A stretch of 64,000 nucleotides of DNA, taken from a virus. Under the pieces are notes generated by a model. It did not search any database. It saw only the letters and a list, made by a program, of their open reading frames with translations, and was not told the DNA's origin. The stretch is taken from positions 82,825-146,824 of the IMG/VR virus record IMGVR_UViG_3300006086_000006. One strand, written 5' to 3'. Shown here piece after piece: positions 32,380 to 64,000 of the stretch. Made by a program: the position numbers and the translations under genes. The stretch's first letter is position 1. Every line of letters begins with the position of its first letter.

Positions 32380-32753
32380 TGGAAATTGAACTAACTTCTG
32401 ATGGTGGTTATGCTCGTATTGATGCAATTGCACCTACTATATATCGTGATGAAAATGGTATTTGCGCTATCATGCAAGACGGACCCAAAACGTATGCTAT
32501 ATACGATGAAAAGAACCCTGGAGGCGTTAATACAATTTTAGCTTTCCAGAATGGTCCTGCACATGAAAGTGTTAACGGTATTTCTAATGAAGCCGTAATT
32601 GCAGTACTAAGACATCGTATTGGTATGTTGAATACTATAGTCCCTAGCGAGTTCAACATAACTGCGATTACTCATTTAGGCCTTGCTTTGGAAGCATTAG
32701 AGCAACGTACTGCACAACGTAAACTTATAGGTATTGAGGGTACCATGCTATGA
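32379..32753 (+). CDS. Hypothetical protein
   Basis: 124 residues, soluble, mixed alpha/beta (ICAIMQDGPKTYAIYDEKNPGG). Overlaps the protease by one base and the Acb1-like gene by four (ATGATGA). No family recognised. Confidence 0.6.
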   Translation: MEIELTSDGGYARIDAIAPTIYRDENGICAIMQDGPKTYAIYDEKNPGGVNTILAFQNGPAHESVNGISNEAVIAVLRHRIGMLNTIVPSEFNITAITHLGLALEALEQRTAQRKLIGIEGTML

Positions 32754-33295
32754 TGATTACAATACCTATTAATGCGGATGTACGTGCTCCAGTATCTTAC
32801 ATAGTTAAGACAACGGTTACACCTATGTACACTGGGTCTAATGGTTTGTATGTTAAAGCTGATCTCGACATTATATCTCCAAACACGTTAGAATATGTTA
32901 CTGATATACTTGGAGTTGAACTTGATCGAGAAGATTTACACGTTACTGTTATGTACAGTGAAGTACCTATAGATAAATCTGCCACGTACTATGGTAATAA
33001 GGTACTAAGTGCTACATGTATTGAAGTAACGCACTGGGTTGGACATAATGATAAAACGTATGTTGTAGCTAAACTTCAATCCGAAGACCTAATCGCTGCG
33101 CACTCTTATTATCGTGGTTTAGGTGCAGTTCCTACTTTCGTACCCTATCAACCACATATTACTTTGTTTAAAATCGAAGAATTACCTGAAGATTTCGAGG
33201 ATAAGATTAAAGCTGCCAATAACTGGTTAGCTGACAATCCTATACACTTTGATTTATCTTTGCAGTGGCCTGAGGATTTACGTGATGGAGATTAG
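32750..33295 (+). CDS. acb1: 2H phosphoesterase, Acb1-like anti-CBASS candidate
   Basis: 181 residues with the two HxT/S motifs of the 2H phosphoesterase superfamily: LHVTVMY (H64, T66) and PHITLF (H136, T138). The GLYVKADLD start, the first HxT after about 25 residues and the PYQPHITL context match the phage Acb1 family (T4 gp57B type), which degrades cyclic oligonucleotide signals of CBASS defence. RNA ligase-like (LigT/2'-5') phosphodiesterases share the fold, so the substrate is inferred. The gene is embedded between head-morphogenesis genes, a typical place for a moron. It ends in TAG. Confidence 0.7.
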   Translation: MMITIPINADVRAPVSYIVKTTVTPMYTGSNGLYVKADLDIISPNTLEYVTDILGVELDREDLHVTVMYSEVPIDKSATYYGNKVLSATCIEVTHWVGHNDKTYVVAKLQSEDLIAAHSYYRGLGAVPTFVPYQPHITLFKIEELPEDFEDKIKAANNWLADNPIHFDLSLQWPEDLRDGD

Positions 33296-53038: not shown

Positions 53039-53824
53039 ATGTCAAGGTTAGCGCAAGACCCTACACCGTCAGATGTTATCAATAGCGGTTTGAAGCAAAT
53101 GAAGCAGTTTCAGCCTTTTATTGATAAGCATAATGCCAGTGTTATACGTAACGTGTTAGAACAACTTTATCCAATAACTTGTTCGGATGAAACTTTCTTT
53201 GAAATGGCAAAAGTCTTTTTAAATATGGCTTATGATATTTCTGAGAATGAACGTAAGCAATTTAAGATAATTAAATATCGTGATACACTATCCATTTATT
53301 TTGATAGTGATGACTTGTTTGAACAACAACCTGTAATTACGTTCCACTATGGGTTTGTGTTTGAACGGCCTAGAGAAAGTTGGCATCGTCATTTTATGCG
53401 TGGCGCTTTCTGGGCAGCTGGTCGTACAACGTGTCGAGCTGGTCGCGCAGTTGGTGTGCAGGTAGTTCAAAACAAAGTGCCTGTTATGAGTGCCTATAAT
53501 GGGGTTGCTGCGGGTTCACCTCATCCAAAAACTTGTTTACGTGTAGAACGTGGTTGCAAAACAGGTGAAGGTCTCCACTTATGTCCTTGTAATCACGCTG
53601 AACAAAACGCGATTGGTATGGCGGCAAAGTTAGGTATTAGACTAGAAGGTAGCACAATGTATGTTACGTCAAGACCCTGCGCAACATGTATGAGCCTTTT
53701 ATCAATAGCACAACCTGAACGTATTATTTATGATGATACCTATGATAGCAATGGTGAGGTAGAAGATATTGCCCGCCACGCAAGCATAGAGCTTATCAGT
53801 ATCCGAGAACTTGAAGACAACTAA
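53039..53824 (+). CDS. Deoxycytidylate (dCMP) deaminase-like protein
   Basis: 261 residues. The C-terminal domain has the zinc-binding NHAEQNAI (His and catalytic Glu) and PCATC (two Cys), plus the preceding CLRVERGCKTGEG...LCPC region typical of dCMP deaminases. These convert dCMP to dUMP for thymidylate synthesis. The N-terminal ~120 residues are an extra domain I do not recognise, so the protein is longer than the usual 150-190 residues. The next-but-one gene encodes dUTPase, supporting a dUMP-producing pathway. Confidence 0.75.
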   Translation: MSRLAQDPTPSDVINSGLKQMKQFQPFIDKHNASVIRNVLEQLYPITCSDETFFEMAKVFLNMAYDISENERKQFKIIKYRDTLSIYFDSDDLFEQQPVITFHYGFVFERPRESWHRHFMRGAFWAAGRTTCRAGRAVGVQVVQNKVPVMSAYNGVAAGSPHPKTCLRVERGCKTGEGLHLCPCNHAEQNAIGMAAKLGIRLEGSTMYVTSRPCATCMSLLSIAQPERIIYDDTYDSNGEVEDIARHASIELISIRELEDN

Positions 53825-53836
53825 TAGGTATATTTT

Positions 53837-54136
53837 ATGCAAGTAGTATTTGACACAACTATTGTTGGACAAGTCCGTAATGCTATTCTTACGGCAGTAG
53901 CAAACAATCAATCTATCGAAAAGATTACATTGTCAGCGGACGAAATGAAAGCTTTTATTAATTCTCCTTTCCACAAAGATGTTGTAAACTCTGATAAGTA
54001 TTATGCAGATCGTACAGCACCTGCACCTCGTGGTCTTACTCGCGTTCCTGAATTGGGTGATGTTCCAGCTTCCTGTTATTACATGGGTGTTCGTATTGTA
54101 GTAGCAAATCAACCAATAGATGCAAGTCTCCGTTAA
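53837..54136 (+). CDS. Hypothetical protein
   Basis: 99 residues between the deaminase and dUTPase genes. Starts VFDTTIVGQVRNAIL, helical, no motif recognised. Likely part of the same nucleotide-metabolism message. Confidence 0.6.
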   Translation: MQVVFDTTIVGQVRNAILTAVANNQSIEKITLSADEMKAFINSPFHKDVVNSDKYYADRTAPAPRGLTRVPELGDVPASCYYMGVRIVVANQPIDASLR

Positions 54137-54165
54137 TTAAATCACAAAAATAGTAGGGTATTTTT

Positions 54166-55029
54166 ATGTCATTAGCTTTTTATACACCAAAGATTCGTTT
54201 TACCTATCAACAAATGCGCGATATGCTGTTGCTACAAGGTAAAGCAAACGATGTAATGTCTGAGGCCTGGCGCACAAGTTGTAATTGTGATATTCAGTAT
54301 TATCGCGCTGGTTGGAAAGAAGCTGCCGAAGCTATCGACCATATTGGTTATAAATGGTGGAAAAAGACTCCAACTAATGTTCCACAAGCTGTGTTAGAAT
54401 TAATTGATATTCACCATTTTGCATTGTCGCACTCTTTACGGGCTGGTTATGTAGCATTAGCATTCGGTGATGAAGATGTACCTCCAGGTGTTGGTTACGA
54501 ATTTACCGAAGCGGAAACAGAAGACGTATTACACGATGTTGCAGAAGAACTATCAACAATGGACAATACTATCACTATTGAGCCTATTGGTAAGTATGCG
54601 TCAAACGATGCGTATGAGAAGATTCAATTCAGCCCTTCTGAAACTGTTAACGGTGTTCATGCAGAAGTTGATATTACTAAATTCCCGGTAGTAGATTTAT
54701 TGGAACAGTTCTGTCACACTACTTTGAATAACGCGGAACCTAACTGGGCGTTATTACATGCGTTGTACGATGCTTTTGGCGTAACTGCTAATGACGTTTA
54801 TGAAATTTACGTTTCTAAAAACTTGTTGAACATCTTCCGTACTTCAAACGGACAGCGTTCAAACGATTACTTCAAAATCTGGAGTGGACGTGAAGATAAT
54901 GAATTCCTTACAGATTACTGTGACTCACAAAAAGCAGCAGGTACAGGTTTGAATGTGGACGATTTATTGACATATTTAACCACAGAATATGAAGCGCAAA
55001 AAGCATCAGGTACAGTAGCAAAAGCATAA
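54166..55029 (+). CDS. Dimeric all-alpha dUTPase (MazG-like dUTPase_2)
   Basis: 287 residues. AWRTSCNCDIQYYRAGWKEAAEAIDH (residues ~34-59) carries the Glu-rich metal site, YKWWKKTP and LELIDIHHFALS (Glu/Asp second site) follow, and KNLLNIFRTSNGQR...YFKIW.G.EDNEFL is the conserved late block. This is the pattern of dimeric dUTPases that hydrolyse dUTP to dUMP and pyrophosphate, keeping uracil out of phage DNA and feeding thymidylate synthesis. The middle acidic insert (VPPGVGYEFTEAETEDV) is longer than usual. A copy of AGTGTAAATA follows. Confidence 0.85.
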   Translation: MSLAFYTPKIRFTYQQMRDMLLLQGKANDVMSEAWRTSCNCDIQYYRAGWKEAAEAIDHIGYKWWKKTPTNVPQAVLELIDIHHFALSHSLRAGYVALAFGDEDVPPGVGYEFTEAETEDVLHDVAEELSTMDNTITIEPIGKYASNDAYEKIQFSPSETVNGVHAEVDITKFPVVDLLEQFCHTTLNNAEPNWALLHALYDAFGVTANDVYEIYVSKNLLNIFRTSNGQRSNDYFKIWSGREDNEFLTDYCDSQKAAGTGLNVDDLLTYLTTEYEAQKASGTVAKA

Positions 55030-55046
55030 AGTGTAAATACTATATG
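55030..55046 (+). promoter_or_regulatory. Candidate phage promoter element AGTGTAAATA
   Basis: AGTGTAAATA followed by CTATATG, in the 64-base gap after the dUTPase stop. Same ten bases as at 4179 and 61233. Inferred. Confidence 0.3.
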
Positions 55047-55093
55047 TAGCAAAGACTACTCACTTTCACACATAATTTCACAGGAATTTAAAA

Positions 55094-55435
55094 ATGCCAC
55101 CAAAAGCTACTAAATCGTCACGAGGTGCTTCGACAACTATTACTGCACCCGAAGTTATTCCAGTCGTGCAACCGATTAATGTATTCCGCTTGTCATTCAA
55201 GATTACGACTACGGAAGAATTTAAAACACTGAAAGGTTTTACAACCGAGAAACTTGTACAGGAAGAAGATCAATTGGTTTCAACGTCTTTGACAATCGAA
55301 CAGTTGCACACCAAGTACGAGGATTTAATCGAAGCAGTTTTAGATTCTCAACCGAATCCTGGCATTGTACAAGTTGAGTTAATTCAAGTTACAGCTTTAG
55401 CACCACACAGTGTTTTGAAGCCAGTAACAGTATAA
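55094..55435 (+). CDS. Hypothetical protein
   Basis: 113 residues, basic Ser-rich N-terminus (PPKATKSSRGAS) and a globular part (FRLSFKITTTEEFKTLKGF). AGGAA upstream. No family recognised. A strong terminator follows, so the message from the element at 55030 may carry only this gene. Confidence 0.6.
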   Translation: MPPKATKSSRGASTTITAPEVIPVVQPINVFRLSFKITTTEEFKTLKGFTTEKLVQEEDQLVSTSLTIEQLHTKYEDLIEAVLDSQPNPGIVQVELIQVTALAPHSVLKPVTV

Positions 55436-55458
55436 AAAAGCGGCGAAAGCCGCTTTTT
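55435..55458 (+). terminator. Strong rho-independent terminator
   Basis: AAAAAGCGGC GAAA GCCGCTTTTT: a 10-bp perfect stem with a GNRA tetraloop, starting at the stop codon of the preceding gene. Confidence 0.9.
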
Positions 55459-55491
55459 CTCTATATGCTACATGATAAGAGGTTTAATAAT

Positions 55492-55923
55492 ATGCCCATT
55501 CAAATATACACTGATGGTGCGTGTAAAGGTAATCCCGGCCCAGGTGGTTGGGGTGTTGTTATAACAGATGGTAAGAAGCAAAAGCATTTATCGGGATATG
55601 TTGCAAATACCACAAATAATCAGATGGAATTACAAGCAGCTATTGAAGCCGTTAAATTTGCAAATCGTGTTTTTCGTGCAGGTACTTCTATTAGCATTTA
55701 TACTGATAGCCAATACGTGTATAATGGTATCACAAAATGGCTAACTGGCTGGAAACGTAATGGTTGGCGTACAGTCGATAGAAAACCTGTAAAGAACAAA
55801 GAATTTTGGGAACAACTTGATGTGAGCCTACACGATATACAATGGTTTTGGGTTCGCGCGCATAATGGTAATGTTTTTAATGAACTAGCGGACAAGTTAG
55901 CCACAACTGCATGTAACACATGA
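55492..55923 (+). CDS. rnhA: Ribonuclease HI
   Basis: 143 residues from the ATG at 55492 (MPIQIYTDGACKGNPGPGGWG). The four catalytic acids are present: D8 (YTDGAC), E46 (NQMELQAA), D72 (YTDSQYV) and D134 (ELADKLA), with the assisting H124 in RAHNG. It degrades RNA in RNA-DNA hybrids, removing primers in phage replication. Length is close to E. coli RNase HI (155). The basic protrusion region (KWLTGWKRNGWRT) is present. Confidence 0.9.
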   Translation: MPIQIYTDGACKGNPGPGGWGVVITDGKKQKHLSGYVANTTNNQMELQAAIEAVKFANRVFRAGTSISIYTDSQYVYNGITKWLTGWKRNGWRTVDRKPVKNKEFWEQLDVSLHDIQWFWVRAHNGNVFNELADKLATTACNT

Positions 55924-55936
55924 GGTGCTTAGTATC

Positions 55937-56146
55937 ATGCCGTGCTTTGAAATAGGTAAAGCGTATCGCCATACAGGTGGACGCGAAATTAAAATTGTAG
56001 GTGAAGTGAATTCTACAATGTACAATAACTGTTTAGTTGCCGAAGAAAATTGTAGTATCGGTTTTATACCTATAGGTCGTGATGAAGGTGCTGCTGTAAA
56101 TTGGGTAGAAATATCAGAAGAAGAATGGCTTAAAAATTTTAGTTGA
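55937..56146 (+). CDS. Hypothetical protein
   Basis: 69 residues from the ATG at 55937, GAGGTG upstream. Beta-strand-rich (YRHTGGREIKIVGEV). Six-stranded small barrel possible; no family recognised. Starts 14 bases after the RNase HI stop. Confidence 0.55.
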   Translation: MPCFEIGKAYRHTGGREIKIVGEVNSTMYNNCLVAEENCSIGFIPIGRDEGAAVNWVEISEEEWLKNFS

Positions 56147-56155
56147 GATATTTTA

Positions 56156-56383
56156 ATGGAAGCAGACGTTGTAGAAAGATTAAAAGGACGCAGACGCCGC
56201 ACGTTCAGTGATATTCGACAAGAAGTTGAAATAGTGAATGCAAATCACATAGCTGTAAATAAGATGGTATGCGCTAGAACACATAGAGTATTAGGATATT
56301 CTGATAACAGAACTTCCTTGCAATTTGATAGTTCTGGAAATTCATTGGAGCTTGCTCGCAGAATCGAGGTTAAGGAAGTATGA
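56156..56383 (+). CDS. Hypothetical protein
   Basis: 75 residues, basic N-terminal part (RLKGRRRRTFSDIRQE). Overlaps the next gene by ATGA. Unrecognised. Confidence 0.55.
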   Translation: MEADVVERLKGRRRRTFSDIRQEVEIVNANHIAVNKMVCARTHRVLGYSDNRTSLQFDSSGNSLELARRIEVKEV

Positions 56384-57288
56384 TTACCGCATTGGAATTA
56401 CAAGAAAAGTTATTACAAGCGTGTTCAGAATTACATAACGTATCTGTATCTACGCTTACAGATAAAGTGGTTGTATGTGACACATTAAATGAAGACATAT
56501 CATTTACTGTAGAGATTGTGAATAAACGTGCATTCCACATTGTTGATAGTGGCGACAGTGTGAACTACAATCACATAGCACAAGTCCAAGCCTACACTTA
56601 TTACCGTTTCGCATTGGTAAAACATTATGGTTATGGTATTGCGCCAGAAGATGCCTTCGGCACTACACTATCGCGAGCGCTTTTACGTAATTGGGACTTC
56701 GCGTATAAACGCACACCAATTGCAGATCATGACCACACTGCTGCCGAAATGTTTCTGTATGATACACCACGACCTGTGTTAGGTCCTAAGACTACAACTG
56801 GTTATGCATTATTTGATACCCTTACTATTAATGGTATTATGGATACATTAAAAACAAATGCGGCTAAAGCCTTGTATGAATTCGATAATGATTTTGACAC
56901 CCACAAGGCAATACAACAACATTTAGATGGTTGTGTAGATAAAAAACAAATTCAAAAAGCCTCAGTGTCAAACATTTACACAAAAACAATAACGTGGAAA
57001 GAATTGTATCCAAACCATATTAAGCGACTGTATGCAATAGCATTATACCATTTGTTGAAATTGTTTAAAGTACCCTTCAATAACGTATCTGGTAAAGCCT
57101 CAGTATTAAAGCAACTGGCTCTATTTGTTACAGAACATGAAATTGTTTATGGTGAAGATTCTCAGGAAGACGTGGTTAAATTTTATCATTATTTTCCAAC
57201 ACAGCATAAAACTAGGTCAGCTATGGTTTCAATAACCCCTATAGCGGCAGTTGAAACTATTAATGTATCATTTAACATCGTTGAGTAA
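56380..57288 (+). CDS. Hypothetical protein
   Basis: 302 residues, mixed. N-terminal strands (VVVCDTLNEDISFTVEIV) then helical regions with many aromatic residues (ARVKHYGYG-like segment, RLYAIALYHLLKLFKV). No nucleotide-binding or membrane motif seen. Overlaps the previous stop by ATGA. It is one of the larger unknown genes in this block. Confidence 0.6.
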   Translation: MITALELQEKLLQACSELHNVSVSTLTDKVVVCDTLNEDISFTVEIVNKRAFHIVDSGDSVNYNHIAQVQAYTYYRFALVKHYGYGIAPEDAFGTTLSRALLRNWDFAYKRTPIADHDHTAAEMFLYDTPRPVLGPKTTTGYALFDTLTINGIMDTLKTNAAKALYEFDNDFDTHKAIQQHLDGCVDKKQIQKASVSNIYTKTITWKELYPNHIKRLYAIALYHLLKLFKVPFNNVSGKASVLKQLALFVTEHEIVYGEDSQEDVVKFYHYFPTQHKTRSAMVSITPIAAVETINVSFNIVE

Positions 57289-59023: not shown

Positions 59024-59434
59024 ATGTTTACTACCCAACTAATTCTCAATACTGCCAACTCTTTACGTGCCATGCAATTAGTTGTAGAGGCGCAGGCAGA
59101 GTTGTTAAAAGTTGGCTATGTTGATCGTCATTACGGATTAGAATTTCGCACAGAAACTATGGCTTACTTGTTGTTGCATAAAGATACGCCTGTTGGTATT
59201 GTGCAGTTTTATGAATTGAATGCTGACGCTATTTATATAGCATTATCCTACGTTAAACCAAGATACAGAAATCGTGGCGGTTGGAAACTGTTGCGGGATT
59301 CTGTAGCGGATTATGGTCGTGATAATCAGAAGTGTTCCGTGTTCAGTGGTGTTTGCATCACGAACGCCGTGAGTATGAATGCAAATAAGACTCGTGGTAA
59401 GGCAGTCTTCGCCACATTTAAAGAGGTCTTGTGA
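59024..59434 (+). CDS. GNAT-family N-acetyltransferase-like protein
   Basis: 136 residues, GGAG upstream. The central strand pair GIVQFYELNADAIYIAL followed by VKPRYRNRGGWKLLRDSV is the acetyl-CoA binding motif A pattern (R/Q-x-x-G-x-G/A) of GNAT enzymes. It could acetylate a host or phage protein, tRNA or small molecule; substrate unknown. The C-terminal part is short. Confidence 0.6.
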   Translation: MFTTQLILNTANSLRAMQLVVEAQAELLKVGYVDRHYGLEFRTETMAYLLLHKDTPVGIVQFYELNADAIYIALSYVKPRYRNRGGWKLLRDSVADYGRDNQKCSVFSGVCITNAVSMNANKTRGKAVFATFKEVL

Positions 59435-61249: not shown

Positions 61250-61480
61250 CGCGTGAGATAAGTTATTGTGTACCTGCCGCAGTAATGTAGACTCACAATC
61301 TGTTTGTTCCATTGTGTCAAACAGATATAGATTAAATCCTTGCAGGTTCATGTTTTCTCGGAGGCTTTATTTATATTGTCGTAGATGAGTTGAAAGGTCG
61401 ATGTAGCGCGTAAGCTAACTGTGTTGTGGCAGAATTAGAGAAAATTGAATTGCGTACCAACCTCTGCGCAATTCTCCTAC
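61250..61480 (+). ncRNA. Candidate structured RNA or 5' leader
   Basis: No gene in 61232-61492. The DNA can fold as follows: ACCTGC (61272-61277) with GCAGGT (61342-61347) encloses the perfect 9-bp stem ATCTGTTTG / CAAACAGAT (loop 61307-61317). A second perfect 8-bp stem GAATTGCG / CGCAATTC (61447-61454 / 61467-61474, loop 12) lies 18 bases before the next ATG. The region could be a separate RNA or a regulatory leader of the C39-like peptidase gene. Type is inference. Confidence 0.35.
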
Positions 61481-61492
61481 AAGGTATTCGTT

Positions 61493-61909
61493 ATGGATTT
61501 CGTTCAACAAGTTTGTAGCCATAGTTGCGGACATGCTTGCATTTCTATGGTAACAAAAGTACCAATTGATATATTGCTAGAAGAAGCTCCTACATTTGGT
61601 GTAGGTATATCAGAAGACATTATGTTGGCGCTGTTCGCAAAACATGGATTTATTTGTCGTCCTATACTGTATCCTCATTTGGTACAATATAGTGGAGTAT
61701 ATATCTGCACAGTACCCTCTTTAAATGTTATGGCAGGTACACACTATATTTTAATGTGTGTTGATAATACAGGTATCACTACGTTATATGATCCGAACGA
61801 AGGTCGAGTCGAGAAGAAATCGTACACAAATCATTTAAGTGTGCCTGTACTTGTTATGCACAAAGTGGAAAATGTTTCAAACATTCTAGGAGAATATCGT
61901 GGCAGTTGA
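61493..61909 (+). CDS. C39-like papain-fold cysteine peptidase
   Basis: 138 residues from the ATG at 61493 (AAGG upstream). QQVCSHSCGHACISM places a catalytic Cys (C12) after an oxyanion Gln, GTHYILMCVDN gives the His (H84) and LYDPNEG the Asp (D100), in the C39 order C-H-D. C39 enzymes cleave double-glycine leaders of bacteriocins; as a free-standing phage protein it could cut a host or phage peptide or act as a deubiquitinase-like/papain-like enzyme. There is no transporter domain. The next gene overlaps by 11 bases. Confidence 0.65.
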   Translation: MDFVQQVCSHSCGHACISMVTKVPIDILLEEAPTFGVGISEDIMLALFAKHGFICRPILYPHLVQYSGVYICTVPSLNVMAGTHYILMCVDNTGITTLYDPNEGRVEKKSYTNHLSVPVLVMHKVENVSNILGEYRGS

Positions 61910-63204: not shown

Positions 63205-63453
63205 ATGTCGTGCGTAGTTCCTTTATACGATATACTTGTTAAGCATGATTACGTTGAAAGTATTTCACCTGAAGCTAGGTTACATCTTAATAAATTGGGC
63301 GACCCAGAAGAAGTGTTTGAAGTGCTGATGACAATTGAGCAGAGATTTGATGTTACGGTCGCTGAGGACGTAGTATTGAATTGTAACAAGTTTGAAGAAT
63401 TAACCATTTACATTGACCAACTAATAAGCGAGAGTGAATTAAAATGCAGGTGA
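63205..63453 (+). CDS. Acyl carrier protein-like protein lacking the carrier serine
   Basis: 82 residues aligning with the ACP that follows: LNKLGDPEEVFEVLMTIEQRFDVTV parallels ALGVDSLDVVEVVMELEDAFDIEI. At the DSL phosphopantetheine site it has DPEEV, so no serine is available. It may be a structural or regulatory ACP homologue rather than a carrier. Overlaps the next gene by 10 bases. Confidence 0.55.
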   Translation: MSCVVPLYDILVKHDYVESISPEARLHLNKLGDPEEVFEVLMTIEQRFDVTVAEDVVLNCNKFEELTIYIDQLISESELKCR

Positions 63454-63731
63454 TACAAACTAACACTATTTGTCCTGAATTCGGAGATGATGTAGCAACT
63501 TTAAAAATTCTGGAAATTCTGATTGATAATATCGGACTTAGACACGAAGAACTAAAACCAGGCACCGAATTAGCTGCACTAGGTGTAGATAGTTTAGACG
63601 TTGTTGAAGTGGTTATGGAATTGGAAGATGCGTTTGACATTGAAATTCAAGATGAAGAACTCCATGATGTTAATACTATTCAAGACCTGATCCATGTTGT
63701 TAATGAGCATATCAGTTTGAAGACAGCCTAA
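63444..63731 (+). CDS. Acyl carrier protein
   Basis: 95 residues with the canonical four-helix ACP pattern and the phosphopantetheine attachment site GVDSLDVVEVVMELED. The host ACP synthase could attach the prosthetic group. ACP carries acyl chains in fatty-acid or polyketide synthesis; why a phage would make one is unclear. It begins within the previous gene and is followed by a third ACP-like gene. Confidence 0.75.
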   Translation: MQVIQTNTICPEFGDDVATLKILEILIDNIGLRHEELKPGTELAALGVDSLDVVEVVMELEDAFDIEIQDEELHDVNTIQDLIHVVNEHISLKTA

Positions 63732-63760
63732 CATAGTTTTTCATACAACAGGAGTTTGTT

Positions 63761-64000
63761 ATGGATATTCGTGCCACAGTATATAGCGAATTAAGTAAGT
63801 TTGTAGGCAACCGTAGATTCGATGATAGTACGCAGATAAAATCACTGTGTGGTACAATAGATTCTCTTGCCTCTTTTTCAGTATTGCTGGAACACGAATT
63901 AAAAATAACAATACCTGCAAAGGCTATAATGGATTGGCAAGTAGTCCAAGATGCTGTAGTGTCTTGTAAGCTAATAAGTTTATCCAATGCAAATAAAAAA
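63761..64000 (+). CDS. ACP-like protein, truncated by window end
   Basis: At least 80 codons, open to the end of the window, with AGGAG upstream of the ATG at 63761. GTIDSLASFSVLLEHELKITIPAK keeps the DSL carrier site and matches ACP helix II. The C-terminal part is out of the window. This is the third ACP-like gene in a row. Confidence 0.55.
   Translation, partial: MDIRATVYSELSKFVGNRRFDDSTQIKSLCGTIDSLASFSVLLEHELKITIPAKAIMDWQVVQDAVVSCKLISLSNANKK

Follow-up and report, generated by a model that had tools for sequence, protein, structure and literature searches.

Three consecutive acyl-carrier-protein-like genes, at least one of them without the cofactor serine, at the end of a partial jumbo phage genome

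Why a bacteriophage should carry several acyl carrier proteins (ACPs) in a row is the question raised by one end of the DNA stretch analyzed here, hereafter called the window, which comprises positions 82825-146824, the final 64 kb, of a linear IMG/VR virus record of 146,824 bases. Phages often have genes annotated as ACPs, which have been reported before and are said to be rarely found (PMC7760394), their function being called unclear (PMC5463345, PMC7760394). An earlier note on this DNA had recognized three consecutive ACP-like genes, with a peptidase-like and an acetyltransferase-like gene upstream, and had proposed that they form a fatty-acid, polyketide-like or acyl-modification module or else act as decoys for host acyl-ACP pathways. 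The genes concerned are as follows (window coordinates):

59024-59434, plus strand: GNAT acetyltransferase-like protein (PF00583, 27.5 bits)
61445-61909, plus strand: protein with C39-like cysteine peptidase fold (PF03412, 22.4 bits; phrog_4049, of unknown function)
63205-63453, plus strand: ORF1, a serine-less ACP-like protein of 82 aa, pI 4.4
63444-63731, plus strand: ORF2, a canonical ACP of 95 aa with an in-register DSL site (Ser50), pI 4.05
63761-64000, plus strand: ORF3, an ACP-like domain, divergent and of the same type as Lu11 gp378, 80 aa readable and open at the contig end, pI 7.8

The three ORFs follow one another on the same strand, ORF1 and ORF2 overlapping by 10 bp, and codon usage prefers the frame given above over the other five for each of them. 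To compare them with other viral proteins we used a hidden Markov model (HMM) built from 99 ACP-like frames of viral loci and named phages, from which the window's own ACP was left out. When this phage-ACP model was run over the 182 called genes of the contig, the first, second and third ranks went to ORF2, ORF1 and ORF3, respectively, the next gene scoring E=0.38; it is very unlikely that ranks two and three would fall by chance on exactly the two genes flanking ORF2. Among 8618 reading frames, no non-seed sequence matched better than ORF1 and ORF3. From ORF1 to ORF3 the proteins are divergent (19-24% identity in alignment). The note's run of ACP-like genes is real, the three being contiguous and holding the top three places in the contig.

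The middle gene is the canonical ACP that the earlier note had placed at 63444. It scores 53.6 bits with PF00550 (PP-binding) against a gathering score of 20.8, which makes it the only member of the cluster to exceed the Pfam cut-off, and 67.7 bits with phrog_5934; 101 PDB sequences match it at E<=1e-3, the matches listed all being ACPs, and comparison with NCBIfam also returns a canonical ACP. Ser50, in the DSL motif at the start of helix II, lies 14 residues before Phe64 and is therefore in register with the cofactor serine, whose distance to the landmark aromatic of helix II is exactly 14 residues in 96 of the 99 phage ACPs (the other three have Asp or Glu at this position).

ORF1 departs from this rule, as the earlier note had said in describing it as a homologue that had lost the serine: Pro34 occupies the position of Ser36 (D-P-E for D-S-L), exactly 14 residues before the equivalent of Phe50. 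Its PF00550 score of 15.8 bits is below the gathering score, but it obtains 21.5 bits with the phage-ACP HMM, a value reached by none of 20000 shuffled sequences (best shuffle 13.1), and the homology spans helices II-IV. An hhalign comparison with seven ACPs gives 69% (E 4e-5), ACPs head its PDB matches (E 0.03) and every one of its weak NCBIfam matches is an ACP model. Structure was predicted with AF2 from single sequences for ORF1 and ORF3, a choice that avoids any fold bias from an ACP alignment. The ORF1 model has helices at 7-13, 22-28, 34-48, 54-58 and 63-81, which is the ACP order, at low confidence (mean pLDDT 52); its top Foldseek matches are mostly ACPs, all of them weak (E>1). Around the missing serine, ORF1 keeps Asp33, Glu36, Glu39, Met42, Glu45, Phe48, Asp49 and Glu54, corresponding to D35, D38, E41, M44, E47, F50, D51 and D56 of Escherichia coli ACP, respectively. 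At the equivalents of V43, M44, F50 and I54, where mutations in E. coli ACP influence its interaction with SpoT, MukB and lipid enzymes (PMC3340395), it has Leu, Met, Phe and Val, which are hydrophobic or identical. ORF1 would accordingly present at most an ACP surface and would not be a carrier, and fold constraints alone could account for the conservation of its helix II.

The earlier note had described ORF3 as a second DSL-bearing ACP-like protein, of which the ACP likeness is probable and the cofactor site is not supported. Its score with the phage-ACP HMM is 11.6 bits (reached by one of 20000 shuffles), and it aligns with the N-terminal ACP-like domain of Lu11 gp378 over 48 residues without gaps (E=4e-6; none of 20000 shuffles), gp378 being a better match for it than ORF2 is. 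There is no Pfam or PHROG match; the two NCBIfam matches, both weak, are carrier proteins (AcpM and DltC), and hhalign gives 13%, which is weak by sequence. Structure prediction does not return an ACP-like fold for ORF3 (pLDDT 66; weak evidence), in contrast to the helix order of ORF1. The DSL of ORF3, at residues 34-36, is two residues out of register: the spacing from its Ser to the landmark between helices II and III is 12 residues instead of 14, and Ile33 stands in the serine column. ORF3 is thus probably serine-less too, as far as the alignments can tell. An alternative hhalign solution would restore DSL as the cofactor site through a two-residue deletion in helix II, but it needs a helix break found in none of the other phage ACPs of the set. 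With Pro or Ile at the serine position, ORF1 and, on this alignment, ORF3 have no canonical site to which an acyl chain could be attached. The acidic docking residues are missing from ORF3 as well, and without that acidic face it probably has another partner than ORF1. It may be longer than its visible part, because it is open at the contig end and Lu11 gp378 has 241 aa.

Where this phage belongs can be told from its head and tail genes. The tail protein and head ATPase of the record are closest to those of Pseudomonas phages PaBG (43% and 39%) and Lu11, and its head-tail block is homologous to that of PaBG with the same gene order; judged from these genes, the record is roughly half of a PaBG/Lu11-like jumbo myovirus. 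Genomes of this group measure about 250-314 kb, and roughly half of the genome is therefore missing from the record; the contig ends where the window ends, so the string of ACP genes cannot be extended within it. A search with the major head protein found relatives closer than PaBG and Lu11. The last stretch clearly syntenic with the 220-kb relatives G002 and G003 is window 53039-57288; none of the window genes between about 57.3 kb and the ACP cluster is matched by a homologue in the stretches of the relatives that were compared. No close relatives were found for ORF2 by direct tblastn of 50,697 phage records, for any of the three ORFs by pattern scans of IMG/VR, or for the neighbours at 59379 and 61445, the C39-like protein at 61445 having no viral relatives found; the three-gene cluster has consequently not been seen in a close relative.

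(Other genes of the record include an anti-CBASS nuclease Acb1-like gene at window 32750-33295 [PF23474, 61.9 bits] and a RecA-like protein on the minus strand [L002:37-2955], which is interrupted by an intein that has a LAGLIDADG endonuclease domain; the intein splicing domain is matched by a second protein encoded in this part of the contig.)

Other members of the group carry ACP-like genes, as was found with a profile that includes serine-less sequences. Lu11 has two, gp353 (DDL, with Asp) and gp378 (DET, with Glu), both serine-less. HRDY3 has two overlapping genes (XDJ15383 and XDJ15384) that both keep Ser; in this locus (L030:15917-16886) an ACP domain stands behind an N-terminal segment of about 150 aa and the second ACP gene overlaps it. 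The same N-terminal segment is conserved in G007, a 314-kb IMG/VR record, in which the single ACP-like gene is fused behind it (L028:1039-1758). NCTB has two genes 1.4 kb apart: an unannotated one in which Ser is changed to Asn (DNL; LT598654.1 118328-118594, or L174:6329-6595) and, downstream, BN7874_152, a DSL-bearing protein annotated as hypothetical. No ACP-like gene was detected in PaBG, in five Enterobacterales phages of the group or in the partial sequences of closer relatives. The function is not core to the clade, because no ACP can be detected in many of its members, namely PaBG and phages of Erwinia, Dickeya and Yersinia. As read from these sequences, ACP multiplicity with loss of serine is a recurrent trait of the jumbo group and not of the window phage alone.

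Serine loss extends to Ackermannviridae. Their so-called acyl carrier proteins have the motif GGD[DE]L, with Asp or Glu in place of serine, in 10 of the 10 members sampled, which represent four genera (Agtrevirus, Limestonevirus, Kuttervirus and Taipeivirus) and include PhaxI and IME250 (loci L033:4414-4746, L166-L173 and L147:2734-3153). A homologue of the protein is present in 272 phage records; on the Ackermannviridae proteins the label of acyl carrier protein is functionally misleading. The support in trees of the ACP domain is too weak for ordering these losses. Elsewhere, exactly one copy of PF00550 per record is found in all 50 other ACP-bearing viral records and likewise in the window record, a count that misses degenerate copies and is not used here for claims of rarity. 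No convincing second ACP-like ORF was found within 3 kb of 98 viral ACPs with a sensitive HMM.

A fatty-acid or polyketide module, as proposed in the earlier note, would need ketosynthase, acyltransferase or phosphopantetheinyl transferase partners in the genome. An AcpS-type phosphopantetheinyl transferase (PF01648) is absent from the 146.8-kb record, which is an incomplete genome, and from Lu11, PaBG, HRDY3, NCTB and several other ACP-bearing phages. Ketosynthase (PF00109) is absent from the record, HRDY3, Lu11, NCTB and G007. In Pfam scans of called genes, the matches listed (25 of 26 families in one scan) belong to families of replication, structural, glycosyltransferase and nuclease proteins, and none is an enzyme of fatty-acid or polyketide synthesis. 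Around the ACPs of 78 distinct viral loci the matches listed are mostly DNA-metabolism and phage genes, with exonucleases, ligases, ParB, phosphoesterases and similar proteins, and include no fatty-acid genes. Phage ACPs would thus be mostly orphan carriers, judging by gene content, and those that work most likely rely on a host transferase. The C39-like and GNAT genes, both real as the earlier note had indicated, are taken here simply as neighbours of the ACPs.

Two other connections were considered and rejected. A patatin-like phospholipase gene lies outside the window (G000:C1:42711-43202, locus L149); as a lipid link to the ACPs it fails, being more than 100 kb away and having no counterpart in the eight relatives searched. 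Within the 39-88 kb stretch of the contig (loci L004-L006), two TET-associated glycosyltransferase-like (TAGT) proteins are encoded, which suggest glycosylation of DNA bases. That ACPs take part in base hypermodification was also considered and discarded, because what the SP-15 paper lists is an 'acyl carrier protein reductase' and no ACP.

Taken together, our best reading, to which we give a probability of about 0.45, is that the cluster combines one host-modified ACP with non-acylatable ACP mimics that would dock on host partners of ACP. The jumbo phage would then carry a small array of orphan carrier proteins, in which ORF2 would be turned into holo-ACP by the AcpS of the host, as no transferase was found in the phage. 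Through its kept acidic helix-II surface, ORF1 would occupy ACP-binding proteins of the host without delivering a chain, serving as an adaptor or competitor by molecular mimicry; candidate targets are SpoT, MukB, IscS, glycerol-3-phosphate acyltransferases and AcpS. This is close to the decoys of the earlier note, which fit better than a module because two of the three proteins lack the cofactor site, the acidic recognition helix is preserved in ORF1, and the serine has been lost also in related phages and in all Ackermannviridae sampled.

The module itself, in which ORF2 would be the carrier used by enzymes encoded beyond the end of the contig and ORF1 and ORF3 would be accessory carriers, could draw on the completeness of ORF2, on the contig stopping at the cluster, so that a missing partner enzyme could lie in the unread half of the genome, and on the GNAT and glycosyltransferases of the contig. 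It is not borne out by the enzyme searches, in the record or around other phage ACPs, and the complete genomes of Lu11, HRDY3 and NCTB have pairs of ACPs without either transferase or ketosynthase; considering also that two of the three carriers have no serine, we regard it as improbable. Somewhat less so, and the strongest of the alternatives while still unlikely, is that ORF1 and ORF3 represent functionless copies of an ACP gene in decay. Their divergence and the different ways in which serine was lost (Pro and Ile) would be expected of relaxed duplicates, but their frames are intact with coding-like codon usage, ORF1 retains the acidic docking residues, ORF3 is closer to Lu11 gp378 than to ORF2, and serine-less ACPs are maintained across the four Ackermannviridae genera, Lu11 and NCTB.

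Ranking between these two is the possibility that ORF2 alone matters, supplementing the holo-ACP pool of the host or redirecting acyl chains, next to unrelated small helical proteins. Its solitary position above the Pfam cut-off agrees with this, as does the rule of single orphan ACPs in the 50 other viral records; yet the second and third best ACP matches of the contig are precisely its flanking genes, and both of these have serine-less relatives in other phages. The least probable alternative is a role in the virion or its assembly, in which proteins of ACP fold would be packaged or assist assembly independently of acyl chemistry. Mass spectrometry is reported to have found putative ACPs in Eneladusvirus phages (PMC7760394) and in a Vi01-like phage (PMC10892097), but low counts could be contamination, and the cluster lies outside the tail and baseplate block, in a region of small genes some 10 kb beyond it.

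Returning to docking mimics beside a host-modified ACP, a broader and more doubtful version would have at least two unrelated phage groups, the PaBG/Lu11-like jumbo phages and Ackermannviridae, independently turning ACP into non-acylatable mimics (Asp, Glu, Asn, Pro or Ile at the serine), which would bind SpoT or acyltransferases of the host and rewire lipid or stringent-response signalling; the window phage would have a working ACP beside such mimics, and together they would form a competing set. In the literature searched, which covered few subscription journals, we found no mention of serine-less phage ACPs or of ACP clusters, and both appear to be undescribed there. A large and conserved subset without the canonical cofactor site would divide phage ACPs into two classes, and the serine-less class, having no usual cofactor site, must work by protein contacts rather than acyl transfer. 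That serine is lost repeatedly, in relatives as well as across Ackermannviridae, suggests a use of these ACP look-alikes by phages in interfering with host proteins rather than in making lipids. This split makes the role of phage ACPs testable, Lu11 (host P. putida) being a cultured relative suited to the purpose.

Among known systems, the bacterial type II ACP (AcpP, PF00550) shares with ORF2 the full fold signature and DSL site, and with ORF1 the equivalents of D35, E41, M44, E47, F50 and D51 in register; it differs from the cluster in having serine where ORF1 has Pro and ORF3 Ile, and the cluster lies outside any fab operon with no phage transferase found. Of the phage acyl carrier protein families phrog_5934 and phrog_4154, the former is matched by ORF2, whereas ORF1 reaches only E=0.06 and ORF3 has no match. 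Vi01_122c, Ag3 gp126 and PhaxI gp094 of Ackermannviridae resemble ORF1, and probably ORF3, as phage-encoded, serine-less ACP-like proteins, but they occur at one place per record, not clustered, with a longer N-terminal part and Asp or Glu at the serine position. Lu11, of the same jumbo group, also has two ACP-like domains without serine, in genes that are 13 kb apart, carry other segments and are annotated as hypothetical. Neighbouring ACP-like genes also occur as pairs in the related jumbo phages HRDY3 and NCTB: HRDY3 retains serine in both copies, one with an extra N-terminal segment, whereas NCTB pairs a serine-less protein with a DSL protein as the cluster does, with other genes between the two.
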